A DNA stretch of 64,000 nucleotides. Source: Subsaximicrobium wynnwilliamsii (GTDB lineage Bacteria; Bacteroidota; Bacteroidia; Flavobacteriales; Flavobacteriaceae). Under the pieces are notes generated by a model. It saw only the letters and a list, made by a program, of their open reading frames with translations. It was not told the origin of the DNA and ran no database searches. Shown here one piece after another: positions 1 through 10,937 of the stretch; the stretch's first letter is position 1, and every line of letters starts with the position of its first letter. The position numbers were made by a program, and so were the translations under genes. The stretch covers positions 1-64,000 of the forward strand of contig NZ_VORM01000021.1 in the NCBI RefSeq assembly GCF_007997225.1, in the 5' to 3' direction.

Positions 1-717
1 ATGGGGCAGATGCTAAGGCGCTCCAAAACCATTTTAAGAACAAACAATCACACAGCACTATTTGATAAGGGATACCATACGGGAAGCGAATTGAAAACAG
101 CTTTCGACCTGAGAATTGACACACTTGTCGCCATCCCGGGAATTGGCAGGGCCTCACAAGCTCCAGATCCAGAATACAACTCCGAACATTTTGTGTATAA
201 TGAGCAAAACGACACATATACCTGTCCGCAGGGAAATCCACTGAAGAGCAACGGAAGCACATACAAAGGGCGTAATTACCGCTTCAAGCAGTATAAGACA
301 AATAAGTGCAAGAATTGCCCGGCAAGGGCGCTGTGCACTACTTCCAAAATAAATGGAAAGGTCATTCAACGAAGTGAGTTCACCCAATATATAGAACAGA
401 ATGCCAAACGGGTCCTAGAAAATCCCCAAGCTTATAAAAGACGGCAAGCAATTGTGGAACATCCTTATGGCACAATGAAAAGACAATGGGGCTGTGACCA
501 TATAATCACCAAACAAACCAAACTACGAGCTAGCGCAGATGTTGGCTTTATCTTTATAGCATATAATCTCACGAGAATTTGGAACATAATAAAACAAGAC
601 AATACGACGGGCTTTGACATGATTGAGACACTAGAAACCGCCATAAACCTATTTTTAGCCTGTATAGCAACATTTGCCAATCACAATAGGAAAATTAAAA
701 TGGCACTCGCGGTTTAA
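1..717 (+). CDS. IS1182-family transposase, C-terminal part (gene starts before the window)
   Basis: DDE transposase of an insertion sequence. The 238 visible residues match the C-terminal half of IS1182-type transposases, which are usually around 500 residues, so the ATG at base 1 is probably internal and the gene begins upstream of the window. FDKGYHTG near residue 22 carries a catalytic aspartate; the zinc-type cysteine cluster CKNCPARALC lies near residue 103; the catalytic glutamate is in VEHPYGTMKRQWG near residue 152. The frame is open to its TAA, so this part is intact. The element lies directly left of a cassette-like unit and inside the accessory region that ends at ssrA. The right terminal inverted repeat could not be defined because the left end is not in view. 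Confidence 0.9.
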   Translation: MGQMLRRSKTILRTNNHTALFDKGYHTGSELKTAFDLRIDTLVAIPGIGRASQAPDPEYNSEHFVYNEQNDTYTCPQGNPLKSNGSTYKGRNYRFKQYKTNKCKNCPARALCTTSKINGKVIQRSEFTQYIEQNAKRVLENPQAYKRRQAIVEHPYGTMKRQWGCDHIITKQTKLRASADVGFIFIAYNLTRIWNIIKQDNTTGFDMIETLETAINLFLACIATFANHNRKIKMALAV

Positions 718-922
718 AACAAAATCTGTAATTTGTTTCTACTAACAAAAATCAAGGCAGGTTATTAGACGGACTGACGTTAGCTGTAATGCGAAAACCG
801 AAAATTTGAGAAATCTATTTTTAATCATATTGACAATGAACATATTTAATCTTTTCGGACAAAATTAACTGCAAAATGACCCATATTGGGAATTTGACCA
901 ATCTAAACACTTTAGACCAAGC

Positions 923-2089
923 TTGGACAAAGGAGAGTTTTTCAAATTGACTGGATTTGACTTTGGTTGGTATGTTCTCGAACCGATTTCTGAGTATATA
1001 AAGGATAGAAAAGGTGAATTAAAAAAAGGAAAAACATTGTCTTATGGACAAAAAGCACTCTATTATTGGTGGTATGTAGATGCACAAGTTAATAATGGTG
1101 GATTTACGCAATTTTATTACAATGACTATGGAAAGTATGTACCGACAATCATAAAAGGATTAAAACATATTGGTGACGATAAAATGGCAGAACTTGTAAA
1201 CAGGTCTTACGAACTCTACCTCAAGGAAAACAAAAAAATTAAAGACGCAAGAAAAGGTGGATTACAAGCTTTTAGCAATCTATATAAAGAAATAGAAGAT
1301 TTTGATGAATTAGATGATGAATATTATGAACTCAATGAGCAGACTATGAAAATCATTGAGAAATATATTCGTAACAATTCAAATGAAATTTGCCGTGATG
1401 AAGATGGAAATGAATTTGACCTAAACTATTCGGGTGAGCTTAAAACTTACCACCCAAATAAAAGTATTAAGGAAATTATTCCACTTGAAAATGGAACTAT
1501 ATCAGGCACTTTTAGAAGTTACTTCGAAAATGGACAACTGAAAGACGAAATCCATTATTTAAATGGAGAGCAAACAGGCAAGAGAACAGAATATTATGAA
1601 AATGGGAGCAATAAATTTTCAATAACAAAATCTCAAAACCCAAAAGGAAACTTACACTCTCATTATTATGAAAACGGAAATCTAAAATCGACTGAAATTT
1701 ATGTTCCCCAGAATGATAGAGATGGTAAATGGATACAATATTATCCTAATGGTCAAATGAAAAGTGAAACTGAATTTATAAACAAAGAGTTTTTTGTGCA
1801 AAATTGCTGGAAAGAAGATGGAAGTCAAATAATGAAAGATGGAACAGGTCTTTATATTAATGAATACTCAATTTTTGATGGAGTAACTGACAGAAACGAA
1901 CAAGAGTATAAAAATCACAAGCGTCACGGAAAACAATATTCTTACAGTAATGATAGACTGACTTTATATCAAGAAATGTCGGAAGGAAAAGAGCACGGAG
2001 TTACTAAAACTTATGATGATGAAGGAAATCTCAAGGAAGAAATAATCTATGAGAATGGGATTGAAAAATCGAAAAAAAAATATAAATAA
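923..2089 (+). CDS. DMP19-like domain protein with C-terminal MORN/YwqK-type repeats
   Basis: Residues about 1-150 resemble the DMP19/DUF4375 domain (QVNNGGFTQFYYN motif near residue 56); residues about 175-385 are repeated YYENGxxK-type units as in MORN-variant/YwqK antitoxin-like proteins. The biological role is unknown. The listed start is a TTG. A better start is the in-frame ATG at 836, whose reading frame would encode MNIFNLFGQN, then a TAA at 866-868, then LQNDPYWEFDQSKHF running into the ORF without further interruption. The residues after the TAA read like normal coding sequence, so the gene probably suffered a nonsense mutation and may be inactive, or it re-initiates at a weak internal start. 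The composition is lysine- and asparagine-rich and the gene sits alone in a cassette-like unit, which suggests transfer. Confidence 0.75.
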   Translation: MDKGEFFKLTGFDFGWYVLEPISEYIKDRKGELKKGKTLSYGQKALYYWWYVDAQVNNGGFTQFYYNDYGKYVPTIIKGLKHIGDDKMAELVNRSYELYLKENKKIKDARKGGLQAFSNLYKEIEDFDELDDEYYELNEQTMKIIEKYIRNNSNEICRDEDGNEFDLNYSGELKTYHPNKSIKEIIPLENGTISGTFRSYFENGQLKDEIHYLNGEQTGKRTEYYENGSNKFSITKSQNPKGNLHSHYYENGNLKSTEIYVPQNDRDGKWIQYYPNGQMKSETEFINKEFFVQNCWKEDGSQIMKDGTGLYINEYSIFDGVTDRNEQEYKNHKRHGKQYSYSNDRLTLYQEMSEGKEHGVTKTYDDEGNLKEEIIYENGIEKSKKKYK

Positions 2090-2100
2090 GAATAAAACAC

Positions 2101-2160
2101 TACAGCTAATAACTAAGTATTCGGCTCGCCGATAGGCCAGAGCTGAATACTGTGTTGACG
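2101..2160 (+). repeat. attC-like half-site with strong stem-loop
   Basis: After TACAGCTAA (2101-2109) there is a 12-bp stem with one G.T pair, AGTATTCGGCTC (2116-2127) against GAGCTGAATACT (2140-2151), and a small inner stem GCC-GATA-GGC (2128-2137) with two unpaired bases (2138-2139) beside it. Imperfect stems with extra-helical bases are typical of the single-stranded fold of attC sites. The outer box pairs perfectly with TTAGCTGTA at 780-788 on the other side of the gene. A simple terminator is less likely because no T-run follows. Confidence 0.5.
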
Positions 2161-2376
2161 AATCCGGTTGATTTGCCGTCTATGGGTAAAACGATGAATT
2201 TAAAGAAGGATGGCTGGAGTTTGCGCTGTTATTGACAAGGTCAGAAGGTATGAAGCTCAATTATTTTCTAACGCCATGAGTGCTTTTTAGTGGTTTAAAT
2301 TTTCAATAGCTGGTTTTCATCGTTTAATTTTAAAGTTAAGGCATAGTAGAGCCAGTCCGCATGTGCAGAATAATTT

Positions 2377-2586
2377 TCAGTTGCTCCCATTCAATTTCCT
2401 GTCTTTCAGTAAAACCCGCCAATTCTCTGGAGGCCCACGATCGTTGAACAATAGTATCGTATGCAATCTCCCTTTTTTACAGACAGGACATCGGCGATGC
2501 AAGAGTGGTTCTTTTGTTCTGACAGGTTCCCTCTTTACAGTGGCCAGTTCAGCTTGTAGTTTTGGCAACTTAAAATAGGCAACCAA
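2377..2586 (-). pseudogene. Transposase-like remnant with CxxC motif (C-terminal end)
   Basis: A 69-codon minus-strand frame contains RRCPVCKKGRLHTILLF followed by RGPPENWRVLLKDRK. The CxxC knuckle followed by a basic, Arg-Gly-Pro-Pro tail resembles the C-terminal end of some Bacteroidota transposases, possibly of the IS91 type, but the catalytic region is absent and the family cannot be fixed. Its upstream edge coincides within a few bases with the point where the rhamnose isomerase gene is cut (about 2587). That supports reading it as the trace of the element that truncated that gene. Confidence 0.4.
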
Positions 2587-3363
2587 TTAGGATCCAAAAG
2601 CCTCACGGTTTGGTTGGCTGATGGGTCTAGTTTTCCTGGACAGAATAATTTTCAAACGGCATTGAGCCACACAGAAGACAGTCTCAAGAAAATTTATCAA
2701 GGACTTCCTGATGATTGGAAATTGCTGATTGAATACAAACCTTACGAACCTAATTTCTACAGTACTGTCATACAAGATTGGGGCACCTCGTTTATGTTGG
2801 CCAATGCTTGTGGAGAAAAAGCCTACTCTTTGGTTGATTTGGGCCATCATTTACCCAACAGCAATATTGAACAAATAGTTTCGGTTTTGATGCTAAAAGG
2901 AAAATTAGGAGGATTTCATTTCAACGATAGTAAATATGGCGATGACGATGTAACTGTAGGTAGTATCAAGCCTTATGCGTTATTTTTAATTTTCAATGAG
3001 TTGGTCTATGGCATGCAGAACAATCCGCAAAATCCAGATTTGGCCTGGATGATTGATGCCAGCCACAATATCAAAGATCCGCTTGAGGATTTGATTCAAT
3101 CACTGGAAGCCATTCAAGAAGCTTACGCCAAAGCCTTGCTCATTGATCAAACGGAGTTGAAAAATGCGCAACTTAACAATGATGTGGTCAAGTGCCAAGA
3201 AATTTTACAAGATGCCTTTAGAACAGATGTAAGACCTCTTTTAGAAAGTGCAAGATTAGCAAGTGGAGGGGCTTTGAGCCCAATACAATCCTATCGTAAA
3301 TTGAATGTTAGAAATGAATTGATAAAAGAAAGAGGCAAGCATAATGTTGCTACAGGTCTGTAA
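2587..3363 (+). pseudogene. rhaI: L-rhamnose isomerase (RhaI type), N-terminally truncated
   Basis: Homology begins at LGSKSLTVWLADGSSFPGQ, encoded from about 2587, and runs to a normal stop. About 255 residues remain where RhaI-type L-rhamnose isomerases have about 425, so the first 170 or so are gone. Metal and substrate motifs of the retained half are intact: EYKPYEPNFYS, LVDLGHH, GFHFNDSKYGDDD and MIDASHNIKDP. The enzyme normally converts L-rhamnose to L-rhamnulose. Without the N-terminal part of the barrel the product should be inactive, and the only in-frame start is an internal TTG (2614). It stands 12 bp before the kinase gene and was evidently the first or an early gene of this catabolic operon. 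Confidence 0.85.
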
Positions 3364-4758: not shown

Positions 4759-5910
4759 ATGGCATTAGATTTTAACACAAAATACCCTTCCATAGACGAC
4801 TTAAGAAACAGAGCCATGCAACGCATCCCAAGATTCGCCTTTGAATATTTAGATGGTGGCTGTAATGACGATGTCAATATTGTGCGAAACACTTCGGAAT
4901 TAAGAGACGTACAATTAAAGCCGAATTATTTGAGAAGTCATCATGGATCAAGTATGAAAACGAAGTTGTTCGGTATTGAATATGATGCGCCTGTTGGGGT
5001 TGCACCTGTGGGATTGCAAGGATTGATTTGGCCAAATGCAGCAGAAATACTGGCAAAATCGGCTTTTGAACACAATATTCCTTTTATTTTAAGTACCGTC
5101 ACAACAACCAATATTGAGCGCGCCAGTGAACTTACTGAAGGCAAGGCCTGGTTTCAACTGTATCATCCTACAGAAGACAGATTGCGAGATGATATTATTA
5201 ATAGGGCGGCAGCAGCACAATGTCCTGTATTGGTTATTTTGTGCGATGTGCCATCCTTCGGCTATCGCCCAAGAGACATTAGAAACGGCTTGGCTATGCC
5301 TCCAAAAATGTCTTTGAGCAACATTTTGCAAGTCATGGGGAAACCAAATTGGGCAATACAGACCTTAAAGCACGGTCAGCCAGGTTTTGCAAATTTATTG
5401 CCTTATATGCCCAAGGGGTTAGATTTGAAACAGTTGGGTAAATTCATGGACCAGACGTTTTCTGGTCGGTTAAATGCCGACAAGATAAAGCCTATTCGCG
5501 ATATGTGGAAAGGGAAGCTAGTGCTCAAAGGAGTCGCCAATGAGGTTGACGTGGAAGAAGCCATTAGATTAGGGATTGATGGCGTAATTGTCTCCAATCA
5601 TGGTGGCCGGCAATTAGATGCCGGTGAATCTAGCATCAGGCCATTAGAACGAATTGCAAAAAAATACGGCGACCAAATAGAGGTTATGATGGACAGTGGT
5701 TTGCGTTCAGGACCAGACATTGCCAGAGCCATGGCCAGTGGTGCTAAGTTTACATTTATGGGTCGTAGTTTTATGTATGGCGTTGCGGCTCTAGGAGCCA
5801 AAGGTGGAGACCACACCATTTCTATTATTAAGACACAACTGCAACAAGTAATGGATCAATTGTGTTGTGAACGAGTAGAAGATTTCCCAAATCATTTAAT
5901 AACCAAATAA
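4759..5910 (+). CDS. lldD: FMN-dependent alpha-hydroxy-acid dehydrogenase (L-lactate dehydrogenase-like)
   Basis: A 383-residue member of the LldD/glycolate-oxidase TIM-barrel family, usual length 350-400. FMN and catalytic motifs are visible: PVGVAPVGLQGL near residue 75, LVLKGV near residue 255 (flavin lysine), and the hallmark SNHGGRQLD with active-site His/Arg near residue 280, followed by MDSGLRSGPDIARAMASGA. The enzyme would oxidise L-lactate to pyruvate and pass electrons to the membrane. In a rhamnose or fucose pathway the aldolase yields L-lactaldehyde, oxidised to L-lactate, which explains the gene's place here. Spacing to its neighbours is 8-9 bp, indicating one operon. Confidence 0.88.
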   Translation: MALDFNTKYPSIDDLRNRAMQRIPRFAFEYLDGGCNDDVNIVRNTSELRDVQLKPNYLRSHHGSSMKTKLFGIEYDAPVGVAPVGLQGLIWPNAAEILAKSAFEHNIPFILSTVTTTNIERASELTEGKAWFQLYHPTEDRLRDDIINRAAAAQCPVLVILCDVPSFGYRPRDIRNGLAMPPKMSLSNILQVMGKPNWAIQTLKHGQPGFANLLPYMPKGLDLKQLGKFMDQTFSGRLNADKIKPIRDMWKGKLVLKGVANEVDVEEAIRLGIDGVIVSNHGGRQLDAGESSIRPLERIAKKYGDQIEVMMDSGLRSGPDIARAMASGAKFTFMGRSFMYGVAALGAKGGDHTISIIKTQLQQVMDQLCCERVEDFPNHLITK

Positions 5911-5918
5911 AGAACATA

Positions 5919-7334
5919 ATGAGCCAATACAATATTGAGGAAGAAATCGAAGAAATCGCAGGTGGTGAATTCGAAAGAATTCCTGTTCCCCAGTCAAAAT
6001 TGAAAAGCTGGAAAAGTTTTTTGGGTATGTACGCCGGAGAACATGCTGCTGGAACAGAGTTTATGATTGGTCCTTTGTTTTTAACGGCCGGTGTAAGTGC
6101 GTTCGATTTAATAATAGGATTGCTTCTGGGAAATTTATTGGCTGTATTAAGCTGGCGTTTTTTAACTGCTGAAATTGCCATCAAAAATAAACTGACCTTG
6201 TATTTTCAACTGGAAAAAATATGCGGCAAAAAATTAGTCACGTTTTATAACCTCGCAAATGGGGTTTTGTTCTGTTTTTTGGCAGGTGCGATGATTACGG
6301 TTTCTGCAACCGCTGTAGGAATTCCATTTGACATGGAAATGCCAAAACTTACAGATACTATGCCTAACGGCGCCACTTGGGAAATCATTGTGATTGTTAT
6401 TGGTGCCGTTATTTCTTTGATTGCTTCAAGAGGGTACGATACGGTTTCTAAAGCAGCCAACTGGATGTCGCCTGCAATTGTACTGGCCTTCTTAGCCTGT
6501 GGGATTGTTGCTTTGAATCAATTGGGCGTTGCCAGTTTTTCCGATTTTTGGAATATCTGGGGAGAAGGTTCAGAACCATTTCCTGGACAGATAAAGTTCA
6601 CATTTTGGCACGTGGTTATTTGGTCTTGGTTTGCCAATGCAGCAATGCACGTTGGGATGTCCGATTTATCGGTATTTCGTTTTGCCAAAAAAGCAAGTTC
6701 GGGATGGACCACAGCTGCGGGAATGTATGTTGGCCATTACATGGCTTGGATAGCTGCTGCTTTATTGTATGCTGTTTATTTGAAGTCACCAGAAGCTTTA
6801 AACTTTTTAGCAAATGGCGAAGCGCCTCCGGTGGCTCCAGGGCCTTTGGCAAATAATGCCATAGGTGTATTCGGGATCATAGCGGTGGTTTTAGCCGGTT
6901 GGACAACGGCTAATCCTACAATCTATAGAGCAGGATTGGCGTTTCAGGCCATCATTCCTAAGGCATCAACCTTTTGGGTGACGATTCTCGCAGGTTCCAT
7001 TGCAACTATTGCAGGATTATTTCCTGCCTTTGCAATGCAGCTTTTAGGCTTTGTCGCACTTTACGGATTCATATTAGCTCCTTTTGGTGCTATAATTGTT
7101 TTTGAGCATTTCTTCCACAAAAAATATGGAATCATTAAAAATTATGCCGAAGTAGCAAACATCAAATTCAACAAAGCAGTGATATTCGCTTGGGCAATTA
7201 GCTTTGGCTTATTTTACTTTATATCAATTCAATTTGATGTCTTTTTATCTTTTGTTACGCTTCCTTCTTGGTTGCTTTGCGGTGTATTGTTTTTGGTGTT
7301 TAGCAAGTATTTTCAGAATAAGAACAGCAAATAA
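5919..7334 (+). CDS. NCS1-family (purine-cytosine permease-like) membrane transporter
   Basis: A 471-residue integral membrane protein with about 12 hydrophobic segments beginning after a 35-residue acidic, soluble N-terminus. The general pattern (AGEHAAGTEFMIGPLFLTAG early, GWTTANPTIYRAGLAFQ in the second half) is that of CodB-like NCS1 permeases. The gene lies 8 bp after the lldD-like gene and is the last of the operon, which makes import of a sugar or organic acid of the pathway plausible, but NCS1 members usually carry nucleobases or vitamins and the substrate cannot be read from the sequence. Confidence 0.7.
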   Translation: MSQYNIEEEIEEIAGGEFERIPVPQSKLKSWKSFLGMYAGEHAAGTEFMIGPLFLTAGVSAFDLIIGLLLGNLLAVLSWRFLTAEIAIKNKLTLYFQLEKICGKKLVTFYNLANGVLFCFLAGAMITVSATAVGIPFDMEMPKLTDTMPNGATWEIIVIVIGAVISLIASRGYDTVSKAANWMSPAIVLAFLACGIVALNQLGVASFSDFWNIWGEGSEPFPGQIKFTFWHVVIWSWFANAAMHVGMSDLSVFRFAKKASSGWTTAAGMYVGHYMAWIAAALLYAVYLKSPEALNFLANGEAPPVAPGPLANNAIGVFGIIAVVLAGWTTANPTIYRAGLAFQAIIPKASTFWVTILAGSIATIAGLFPAFAMQLLGFVALYGFILAPFGAIIVFEHFFHKKYGIIKNYAEVANIKFNKAVIFAWAISFGLFYFISIQFDVFLSFVTLPSWLLCGVLFLVFSKYFQNKNSK

Positions 7335-9055: not shown

Positions 9056-10306
9056 CTAATTTTTTTGTGTTAGATCCTTATTATTTTTCTTTTCAGTTGC
9101 CATTTTTTTCTGTAAAATCTTCATATCTTCATTAACCTTTCTATCGATAATCTTGGCATAATGTTGTGTGGTACGTAAGTTTTTATGTCCTAACAACTTC
9201 CCAACGGTTTCTATAGGCACGCCATTTGAGAGCGTGACTGTAGTTGCGAAGGTGTGTCGCGCCAAATGAGTGGTTAGGTTTTTCTTAATACCACAAACTT
9301 CTGCGATTTCTTTAAGATAGGCATTGGATTTCTGATTACTTAATACGGGTATCAAACAGTCGCCATTGATGACTTTAGGGTGCTTTTTATATTTTTCCAG
9401 AATAGCTAGCGCTGGTGGAAGTAGGGGAATACCCAATTTCGATTTGGTCTTGGTCCTGTTAGCTTGGATACGGAGTGCCCCATCAATTTCCATCACGATG
9501 TTATTATCAGTTAGCTTTTGGATGTCGATATAGGAAAGCCCTGTATAACAACAAAACACAAACATGTCCCTCACGACAGAAAGGCGTGATCCCTTGATTT
9601 CTTTATTGATTAGTTCGTCTATCTCCTCTTGTGAGAGATAGTCTCGTTCTACTGTTTTAAATTTGATTTTATAATTGTAAAACGGATCTTTGGTAATCCA
9701 CTCATTGCCCACTGCAATACGGATGATCTTTTTGAAATTATTGACATACTTAAGTGCAGAGTTGTGATTGCAAACTTTGATTTCTTTCAGGAAATACTCA
9801 AAACCGCGAATAAACTTGAGATTCACATCTCTTATAGGAATGTCCTGCATATTATAAGATGTTTTGAGGTACTCCGAAATATGATTTCTGGTGGTAAAAT
9901 ACCGCTTGTAAGTACCGAGTGCGAACTCAATATCGATAAGTTTTTTCATCTGCTTATTGTGCTCGTTAAATATCTCAAGCAGCATTTTCGGTTTGTCCTT
10001 TTTGCCGATGTACAGGTCTTTAATATCTTGTGCTGTAAAAGGATCACCTTTATCAAAAAGTTTGTTCTGAATGCGATAAACCTTATGCCTAACATTGGTC
10101 ATCAAATTGCTAATCTCACCTACTTCAGTACCTTTTCCTCTTAACTTATTCATTCGTGAATCCCATTTTTCGGGGTCAATCTTTCTGTGCATACTGATAG
10201 TTGTACGTCTGCCATTTGCTGTAATCCTTAGATATAGGCCAGCTTTTCCATTTTTATCTTTACGCTCATCTTTGAGGTAAAAAAGAGTTGAGAATGTGTT
10301 TTTCAT
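9056..10306 (-). CDS. Tyrosine-type site-specific integrase of a conjugative-transposon-like island
   Basis: A 416-residue recombinase with the arrangement usual in Bacteroidota elements: an N-terminal arm-binding segment (FSTLFYLKDERKDKNGKAGLY, residues 5-25), a SAM-like core-binding domain (about 110-215) and a catalytic domain (about 220-395). Visible catalytic residues are HLARH (His-x-x-Arg), LLGHK and the nucleophile region HYAKI near residue 387. The position of the first catalytic Arg reads TGLSYID, that is Ser, a replacement also known from IntDOT-class integrases. The gene is on the same strand as ssrA and begins 240 bp past the tmRNA 3' end, the usual place for an integrase that uses ssrA as attachment site. 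Confidence 0.9.
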   Translation of the reverse strand: MKNTFSTLFYLKDERKDKNGKAGLYLRITANGRRTTISMHRKIDPEKWDSRMNKLRGKGTEVGEISNLMTNVRHKVYRIQNKLFDKGDPFTAQDIKDLYIGKKDKPKMLLEIFNEHNKQMKKLIDIEFALGTYKRYFTTRNHISEYLKTSYNMQDIPIRDVNLKFIRGFEYFLKEIKVCNHNSALKYVNNFKKIIRIAVGNEWITKDPFYNYKIKFKTVERDYLSQEEIDELINKEIKGSRLSVVRDMFVFCCYTGLSYIDIQKLTDNNIVMEIDGALRIQANRTKTKSKLGIPLLPPALAILEKYKKHPKVINGDCLIPVLSNQKSNAYLKEIAEVCGIKKNLTTHLARHTFATTVTLSNGVPIETVGKLLGHKNLRTTQHYAKIIDRKVNEDMKILQKKMATEKKNNKDLTQKN

Positions 10307-10310
10307 AAAA

Positions 10311-10442
10311 TAGGTGTCGATTAATACCTGATAAAGTTGGGTAAAACCATCGAACGCAATTTTATATTTAACATAAAATCAAATAATTACAGCTAAATCG
10401 ACACCCATTTTTGGTTTCAAAAATAGGTGTCGAATAGGTGTC
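10311..10442. repeat. TAGGTGTC repeats and 15-bp hairpin upstream of the integrase gene
   Basis: TAGGTGTCGA lies at 10311-10320 directly before the integrase start, a hairpin with arms CGACACCCATTTTTG (10399-10413) and CAAAAATAGGTGTCG (10418-10432) pairs 14 of 15 bases around the loop GTTT, and another TAGGTGTC follows at 10435-10442. Repeated boxes on both sides of a tyrosine integrase gene are good candidates for arm-type binding sites or an autoregulatory operator. Confidence 0.6.
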
Positions 10443-10522: not shown

Positions 10523-10545
10523 GTTGTCAATTAATAGTCATTCAG

Positions 10546-10937
10546 TGGAGTCGGAGGGATTCGAACCCTCGTCCAAACAAGCTATTGAAGAGCTTTCTTC
10601 ACGTTTAGTCTTTCATTGGGTTTTCGATTGCAGGCTGGCAAAAGACAACCTACCTGCAACTTAGCTCCTTGATCTCGACAGCACATCGAAGCGCTATGCT
10701 GCCTTAGTCAATTTTTTCGATGCCTCAAATAGAACGCCATTAACCAAGGCTTTCCGGAGACATTTAGCTTTCCTACCTAGTAGGAACTAGCTTAATCTTA
10801 CTGTAATTCAGATTATGCAGCTAAAGCGTAGTTATTCTCGCCGATTAAAAAGTTGACCTAGCCTTTTACGTGTCTCAAAGTCATTACACGACGTGCTTAC
10901 CATCCAATGAGTCTCGCTGTCAAAACCAGTCGACCCC
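10546..10937 (-). ncRNA. ssrA: tmRNA (transfer-messenger RNA)
   Basis: Read on the minus strand the gene begins GGGGTCGACTGGTTTTGACA and ends GGGTTCGAATCCCTCCGACTCCA. The first seven bases pair with the last stem bases (GGGGTCG with CGACTCC, one G.U), forming the alanyl-tRNA-like acceptor stem; GGTTCGAATCC is the T-arm. CCA is not encoded. Length is about 392 nt, normal for Bacteroidota. With SmpB it frees stalled ribosomes and tags the nascent chain for proteolysis. The tag frame is at 10813-10842. An island integrase lies at its 3' end. Confidence 0.96.
10813..10842 (-). CDS. ssrA: tmRNA proteolysis tag, GENNYALAA
   Basis: Within the tmRNA, the minus strand reads GGC GAG AAT AAC TAC GCT TTA GCT GCA TAA, giving GENNYALAA followed by stop, the flavobacterial form of the tag with the C-terminal LAA recognised by ClpXP-type proteases. 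The tmRNA supplies alanine before the resume codon. Confidence 0.93.
   Translation of the reverse strand, partial: GENNYALAA

Follow-up and report, generated by a model that had tools for sequence, protein, structure and literature searches.

Insertion sequences that target attC are known from the IS1111-attC group, which uses a DEDD transposase. Members of the IS91 family usually insert at the tetranucleotide GAAC/CAAG, and pairs of a recombinase and a transposase are already known in the IS91/ISCR family. Group IIC-attC introns, as presented in the available part of one account, target R'' on the bottom strand of attC, beside the hairpin, at TTGT/T, and the same part of that source records ISHahl1 (IS200/IS605) next to the last attC of a CALIN in Halorhodospira, a single observation (PMC7923331).

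The available portion of the IntegronFinder 2.0 survey reports one complete integron in Bacteroidetes proper, that of Salinibacter ruber, CALIN counts aside, and states that only cassette-less integrases had been seen in Bacteroidetes before (PMC9024848). Bacteroidota are named among the integron-bearing phyla in the available parts of three further papers (PMC8618304, PMC9668308, PMC2426708). The presence of integrons in this phylum is not new; the scale reported here would be.

Here, we describe a locus in a 64,000-nucleotide stretch of DNA (the window; positions 1–64000 of contig C47 of the Subsaximicrobium wynnwilliamsii genome) at which, very probably, the R'' box of a stranded cassette has been split from its attC by an attC-preferring IS91-type element that combines a recombinase with an HUH transposase.

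Results

A stranded single-gene cassette

The box TTAGCTGTA at 780–788 is matched by its exact reverse complement, TACAGCTAA, at 2101–2109 over 9 nt, and the two enclose one gene (Table 1), as the sequence-only reading of this DNA had noted. Counting this pair, the window has three copies of the 9-mer where 0.43 would be expected. The start box follows a G|TT boundary and is complementary to the terminal R'' box over its whole length, the ..CG|TT context at the crossover matches eight of the nine right-end copies found in the same genome (see below), and joining the ends of the unit head to tail gives an attC-like fold (z −6.0). The stretch 780–2109 is a real integron-type single-gene cassette, which is stranded: in place of a complete attC with an L''/L' stem it has the end of an insertion sequence, for which the attC model gave no match, and it does not lie in an array next to an integrase. 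No attC was recognised in the 64-kb window, the four model matches all having E above 2 and none E below 1; the bases 760–779 gave no model match either, and Rfam at gathering scores found only tmRNA in the whole window.

Table 1. Features of the cassette locus, with positions in the window
Feature	Position	Strand	Basis or remark
DDE_Tnp_1_6 transposase, C-terminal part	1–717	+	PF13751, 61.4 bits over 25.1 cut-off
Probable last bases of preceding attC, ending ..GACG before crossover	760–779	+	sequence context
Start box TTAGCTGTA (R' half)	780–788	+	sequence; crossover between 779 and 780
Integron-type gene cassette, one gene	780–2109	+	box rule as in 34/37 own and 147/158 other cassettes
DMP19-MORN gene	836–2089	+	in-frame stop near codon 11; open part 887–2089
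R'' box TACAGCTAA, exact complement of 780–788	2101–2109	+	sequence
Truncated element copy, right end at 2110, transposase C-terminus	2110–2571	-	98% identical to C72 copy
Terminal stem-loop of element right end	2116–2151	-	kept among element copies
GTTGACGAATCCGG, attC-like R'' arm of element	2154–2167	-	imperfect inverted match to left end TTGAACGAATCC
Gene fragment joined to broken element	2572–3363	+	no Pfam match

The cassette gene encodes DMP19 (PF14300, 102.3 bits) and MORN_2 (PF07661) domains, and by the PF14300 domain its product is a candidate member of the DMP19 DNA mimics. Intact homologues of 416–418 aa start upstream of the in-frame stop in the window copy, and this stop makes it probable that the gene is inactive, or else that it begins later. 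Homologues of up to 93% exist, and upstream of one of them lies a cassette start like that of the window. A role of this cargo in defence, as had been suggested, found no support: no PADLOC family was matched, and the frame is interrupted near its start. Defence genes of the SpbK-like TIR and PD-T4-2-like types do occur in cassettes near other copies of the element, with matches to the PD-T4-2_A and SpbK-like TIR models in or near cassettes at 2201–3310 and 5340–6185 of locus L014 and at 5257–6504 of L016; such genes in those cassettes are no argument that the DMP19-MORN gene acts in defence. Similar reverse-strand open reading frames, presumably SSB-like, also recur near cassettes (1578–1913 and 4749–5114 of L014 and 5023–5652 of L015, all on the reverse strand).

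On its left, the contig starts inside a transposase gene, which we take to be IS1182-like and which has probably deleted or shifted the DNA that preceded the cassette. On its right, the truncated element is fused to a gene fragment that is presumably sugar-isomerase-like, and the cassette, left without a complete attC, is probably not mobile any more. The third copy of TTAGCTGTA lies on the reverse strand at 10388–10396, between reverse-strand features at 9056–10306 and 10543–10937. The former is a frame of 416 aa that matches a tyrosine recombinase family (TIGR02249, 46 bits); it stands beside the tmRNA gene, a usual seat for integrated elements. When the cassette was sought in 57 relatives, the own genome included, the best match outside the own genome was 1.2e-17, and among 395 Bacteroidota genomes one further genome had a match at E ≤ 1e-90, with 56% identity; neither set revealed a presence or absence of exactly 780–2109 between strains.

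The sequence beyond 2109 is the end of an IS91-type element

The stem-loop and TTGACG to the right of 2109 had been read as the attC of the cassette, with the border of the unit at 2160. They are instead the right end of an element of about 2.4 kb, inserted in the R'' box, and since 2110 to about 2571 belongs to this element, the cassette ends at 2109. More complete copies contain a tyrosine recombinase gene and an IS91-type HUH (Y2) transposase gene. In contig C72 of the same genome, the convergent gene matches PF04986 (Y2_Tnp), PF14319 (Zn_Tnp_IS91) and NF033538 over its cut-off, identifying an IS91-family transposase; the Y2 HUH transposase with its zinc-binding domain is present both in this copy and in that of locus L084, the two transposases being 53% identical, and in C61 a broken tyrosine recombinase gene lies upstream of the transposase. 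A search of named genomes found 78 loci, and in those inspected the unit consists of recombinase, transposase and hairpin end; carriers include Gelidibacter, Gillisia, Formosa, Mariniflexile, Sphingobacterium and Kaistella, among others. The terminal stem-loop folds at −13.1 kcal/mol (z −4.3), with none of 200 shuffled sequences folding as well.

The left end was located with the copies in Formosa sp. L2A11. Upstream of the transposase these are about 98–99% alike for some 1,010 bp, beyond which the similarity breaks off abruptly, placing the left end of the element at TTGAACGAATCC; the exception is two copies with a group II intron in common farther out. The element can thus be described by a right end of GTTCAAC (or GTCAAC), hairpin and CTTAGTTA^TT, and by a left end of ^TTGAAC. 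When the two ends were joined as in a circle, the arms paired around the hairpin in three of the four elements tested.

We considered whether the 60-bp right end could be a short but genuine attC of the cassette, with the IS91-type gene a mere neighbour. The exactness of the boxes and the good fold of the reconstituted site would fit such a site, but the same 60 bp are common to copies with different boxes, and in seven of the eight copies aligned the common sequence continues downstream, only C64 diverging soon past GTTGACGAAT. Moreover, many genomes have these 60 bp as the end of a transposase element, the attC sites modelled for the own genome measure about 140 bp and have another stem, TTGACG is followed by AAT in eight copies and not by a TTRRRY box, and the attC part that is absent here is present at the opposite end of the element in many copies. 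We therefore regard a genuine short attC as very improbable.

The element recombinase is related to a XerC-like protein (4a8e, 116 bits) and to IntI4 (110 bits), and it is 43% identical to the integron integrase over 196 aligned residues; in a tree, a branch supported at 99/96 groups 15 element recombinases on one side. A recombinase-plus-IS91 element is also found on a Sphingobacterium faecium plasmid with erm(F) (L197, NZ_CP094932.1), its recombinase being 99.7% identical to that of L084. Pairs of a recombinase and an IS91-type gene occur on alphaproteobacterial plasmids as well (L199, L200), with recombinases that group apart, and inspection by eye of the alphaproteobacterial elements did not find ends of the Bacteroidota type. 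GTTCAAC and, after it, a possible hairpin were also seen by eye downstream of the transposase in three loci of still more distant relatives, from candidate division KSB1 and Lachnospiraceae (L106, L114, L115).

Many right junctions lie at the R'' box

Searching the same genome with 2095–2165 gave nine copies with E below 1e-13 (contigs C47, C72, C98, C81, C75, C86, C64, C43 and C61); a tenth match, of 16 nt, was set aside as a chance match. The nine copies adjoin different genes, and the 9 nt before ..TAACTAAG are of six kinds. All nine have the exact complement of the box 0.5–2.3 kb upstream, where the neighbouring gene starts, after ..CG in eight copies and after ..TG in C61, the R'/R'' pattern that marks integron cassettes. 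The main intuition of the sequence-only reading, a single-gene integron-type cassette with a G|TT boundary, was thus right, and the check that it had proposed, a search for the 60-bp right end next to other genes, succeeded in these nine copies as well as in the loci of the named genomes.

From those, 67 of the 78 loci were examined with CTTAGTTATT as the right-end anchor, up to two changes being allowed; 61 gave a right end, 59 of them with a flank of at least 11 nt. TT stands at the junction in all 59, which is not independent because the anchor contains TT. The bases TT[AG] were found in 56, G at position 10 in 54 and the exact 9-nt complement followed by C in 32. Complements with one mismatch account for 10 of the other 27, among which some contigs end early. 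In a control on 44 right ends from the own genome and the named loci, a set that retains one false anchor, one tandem copy and one end with a 2-nt flank, a complement was found for 26 of the 44 true boxes versus 13 of 440 shifted boxes. The rule also covers distant relatives of the element. Insertion next to GAAC/CAAG, as in the IS91 family, was not what we found at these junctions, where a TT[AG].. box adjoins the element in 56 of 59 cases. Two successive elements on a Tenacibaculum plasmid are separated by one annotated gene, and a complement exists for the first right box only; in an unrelated stretch, L172, the left end abuts an attC-model match exactly and the right box has no exact complement upstream.

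Left junctions often abut the remainder of an attC

The left boundary of the element is sharp and often abuts the rest of an attC. Among 31 left ends, 16 continue into an attC minus its R'' box by a rule of energy and length that is weak when taken alone, three more do so by a model match and one by eye. Nine have no recognisable attC (L041, L042, L048, L053, L054, L086, L088, L089 and L099), and the remaining two, both Formosa copies, abut the 3' end of a group II intron as judged by eye (L058 at about 6986, L100 at about 6992). At L048, in Gelidibacter, the element appears by eye to interrupt a gene for a group II intron protein (about 591 and about 3016).

The match of the first 16 sites to our attC model is no test, since they went into it. 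We therefore turned to 48 other element loci that were not in the model. Eighteen of them gave 35 attC matches, every one on the same strand with respect to the element. Comparison of 23 of these matches (14 loci) with the left ends gave nine loci with a match ending exactly at the left end (offset 0), and in the 14 loci no attC match was found at any other offset within 60 nt of it. In most of the distant relatives, such as those in Sphingobacterium and Kaistella, no model attC was found at the left end. The preferred target would be the R'' box, 5'-TG^TTRNNNNNNG on the attC bottom strand, that is, AA^C on the top strand.

Such specificity might arise from selection, if the element inserted widely and survived mainly in dispensable cassette arrays, and it is true that the arrays are large and that some copies sit elsewhere. 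Where an attC is recognised, though, the junctions agree to the base on a single position of a single box, and neutral survival would spread insertions across cassettes, so we give selection very little credence and retain a preference of the element itself for attC.

attC sites, and probably integrons, are common in the Flavobacteriaceae

For the covariance model, which we built ourselves in place of IntegronFinder's, 23 attC sites were used, with compensatory changes in 8 of 11 pairs. It gave 150 matches in the own genome, 141 of them at E ≤ 1e-5, and the count of at least 141 sites is a lower bound, as only 150 of 3637 candidates were scored. These sites are about 140 bp long with a stem unlike that of the 60-bp right end. 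Arrays in the Flavobacteriaceae are large, such as one of 37 sites in 40 kb. An attC covariance model had been proposed as a check on the locus, which had been described as lying outside any visible integron. In the window this description holds, no match having E below 1; across the genome it fails, because of the 141 matches elsewhere, and so it is true only locally.

One contig of the same genome (C121; locus L158) appears to carry a complete integron, with a tyrosine recombinase beside an attI and cassettes. Its first cassette begins 28 nt past the integrase stop, and attC sites lie at 10604, 11573 and 12021 of L158. Among proteins of solved structure, this integrase scores best against XerA (158 bits), followed by a XerC-like protein (147) and IntI4 (123), and it falls outside the IntI family TIGR02249, with 122 bits against a cut-off of 265. 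The second cassette encodes a membrane protein (10756–11586 of L158), presumably a prolipoprotein diacylglyceryl transferase.

In a survey of 149 Flavobacteriaceae genomes, about one per genus, 121 had attC matches (E ≤ 1e-8) and 28 had none, with 23 of the hundreds to thousands of candidates scored per genome. No IntI over the curated TIGR02249 cut-off was found in the 149, and 67 had a sub-threshold match (E ≤ 1e-30). All 18 integrases that we aligned with IntI1 lack one segment of the alignment, which we take to be the one called IntI-specific. The element transposase (E ≤ 1e-40) occurs in only seven of the 149 genomes, so the arrays cannot be put down to the element.

We then examined 14 stretches of 13 genomes that had been picked for their matches. 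In each stretch all attC sites, 176 in total, share one strand, and the rule that start and R'' boxes are complementary (at least 8 of 9 nt) holds for 147 of 158 cassettes; nine match the next cassette, and random pairing gives 3.5%. In the own genome, 34 of 37 cassettes keep the rule and eight match the next cassette, with random pairing at a high 19.9% because boxes repeat there. For 150 of the 176 sites, 98.0% of pairs are standard and covariation is 0.649 versus 0.126 in shuffles (0 of 500 as high), on an alignment fitted to the model; two of five covariation measures were not clearly above shuffles, namely pair changes on both sides (20 of 500) and further pair types (481 of 500).

Going down the list of sub-threshold IntI matches, apart from genomes already included, we inspected 20 further integrase loci. 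Eleven contain attC sites, downstream and co-directional in ten and divergent in one (L195); three contain none, and in six the sequence ends within 0.7 kb of the integrase match. Overall, a first cassette starts 27–108 nt after the integrase in 16 of the 18 attC-bearing integrase loci, with one mismatch allowed, the exceptions being L186 and L191.

Which enzyme could join the element to attC

The HUH transposase could make single-stranded element DNA that would be joined to a folded attC. The right end of the element (a GTTCAAC-like arm, the hairpin and TTAGTTA^TT) together with the left end (TTGAAC) would reproduce the layout of attC, and attC may be recognised because it resembles the element's own end. 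The tyrosine recombinase may perform or resolve the joining step. A target G^TTRRRY would become [attC]G^TTGAAC...TTAGTTA^TTRRRY, a layout in which what is left of the attC receives a new R''-like box (GTTCAAC) from the element. The copy in the window would later have been truncated and fused to another gene.

The site-specific exchange might instead be the work of the tyrosine recombinase and not of the HUH transposase, the element being a self-mobile cassette whose attC-like end recombines with attC. We rate this a real possibility, somewhat below even: the G^TT crossover is that of cassettes, the element ends were complementary in three of four cases, and the kinship to 4a8e and IntI4 and the identity to an integron integrase point in the same direction. 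Insertion, however, takes place at R'', the 3' arm of the folded bottom strand, and not at the R' position that cassette integration uses, and the recombinase–IS91 pairs in Alphaproteobacteria go without such ends, as far as can be seen by eye. Going by the order of elements in the sequence, a hairpin and then the cut site, we lean slightly towards the HUH enzyme for the cutting.

Discussion

As read from the sequences, the boundaries of the cassette, the element, its base-exact junctions in many genomes, the attC arrays and the integrase–attI–cassette platforms are all demonstrated here. Taking them together, we think it more likely than not that the Flavobacteriaceae commonly carry little-noticed integrons, with a XerA-like integrase that has no IntI segment, an attI and arrays, and that a Bacteroidota-wide lineage of recombinase-plus-HUH elements prefers attC by way of evolved attC-like ends and acts like a cassette able to move itself, splitting and marking the arrays and possibly mobilising them. 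Among the matches listed in a search of the open-access literature, titles and the openings of abstracts mentioned no attC-specific IS91 elements and no widespread integrons of Flavobacteriaceae. If our reading is confirmed, a large number of integrons have gone unnoticed, perhaps because the IntI-specific segment is what searches look for, and how an HUH or a tyrosine enzyme reads a folded attC becomes testable.

The arrays resemble integron cassettes with their attC sites (R'', L'', L', R') in the G|TT start and in an R'' box complementary to the start of its own cassette, and they resemble integrons in their tandem arrangement on one strand and in having attI next to the integrase. Unlike known integrons, the 18 aligned integrases are without the IntI segment, and no integrase of the 149 genomes scores up to the TIGR02249 cut-off; the integrase also reads in the direction of the array in 10 of 11 attC-bearing loci, and attC is about 140 bp long. 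The window itself differs from an integron cassette in that its attC is split by the element.

The element shares with IS91/ISCR (HUH Y2) the matches to PF04986, PF14319 and NF033538 over the cut-off and a hairpin at the end downstream of the transposase, and it departs from them in its extra tyrosine recombinase gene, its preference for attC as a target and its attC-like ends. As the available part of PMC7923331 describes group IIC-attC introns, the element is like them in targeting R'' on the bottom strand of attC, beside the hairpin, and unlike these retroelements, which use another enzyme, it is a DNA transposon that cuts one base away (G^TT). ISHahl1, in the same part of that source, is likewise an HUH element beside an attC, but of another family and without an attC-specific series. 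The IS1111-attC group also targets attC; our element has an HUH transposase and a tyrosine recombinase, and not the DEDD (IS110/IS1111) transposase of that group. Beside group IIC-attC introns and IS1111-attC elements, it would, if confirmed, represent a DNA-transposon solution to the recognition of attC.
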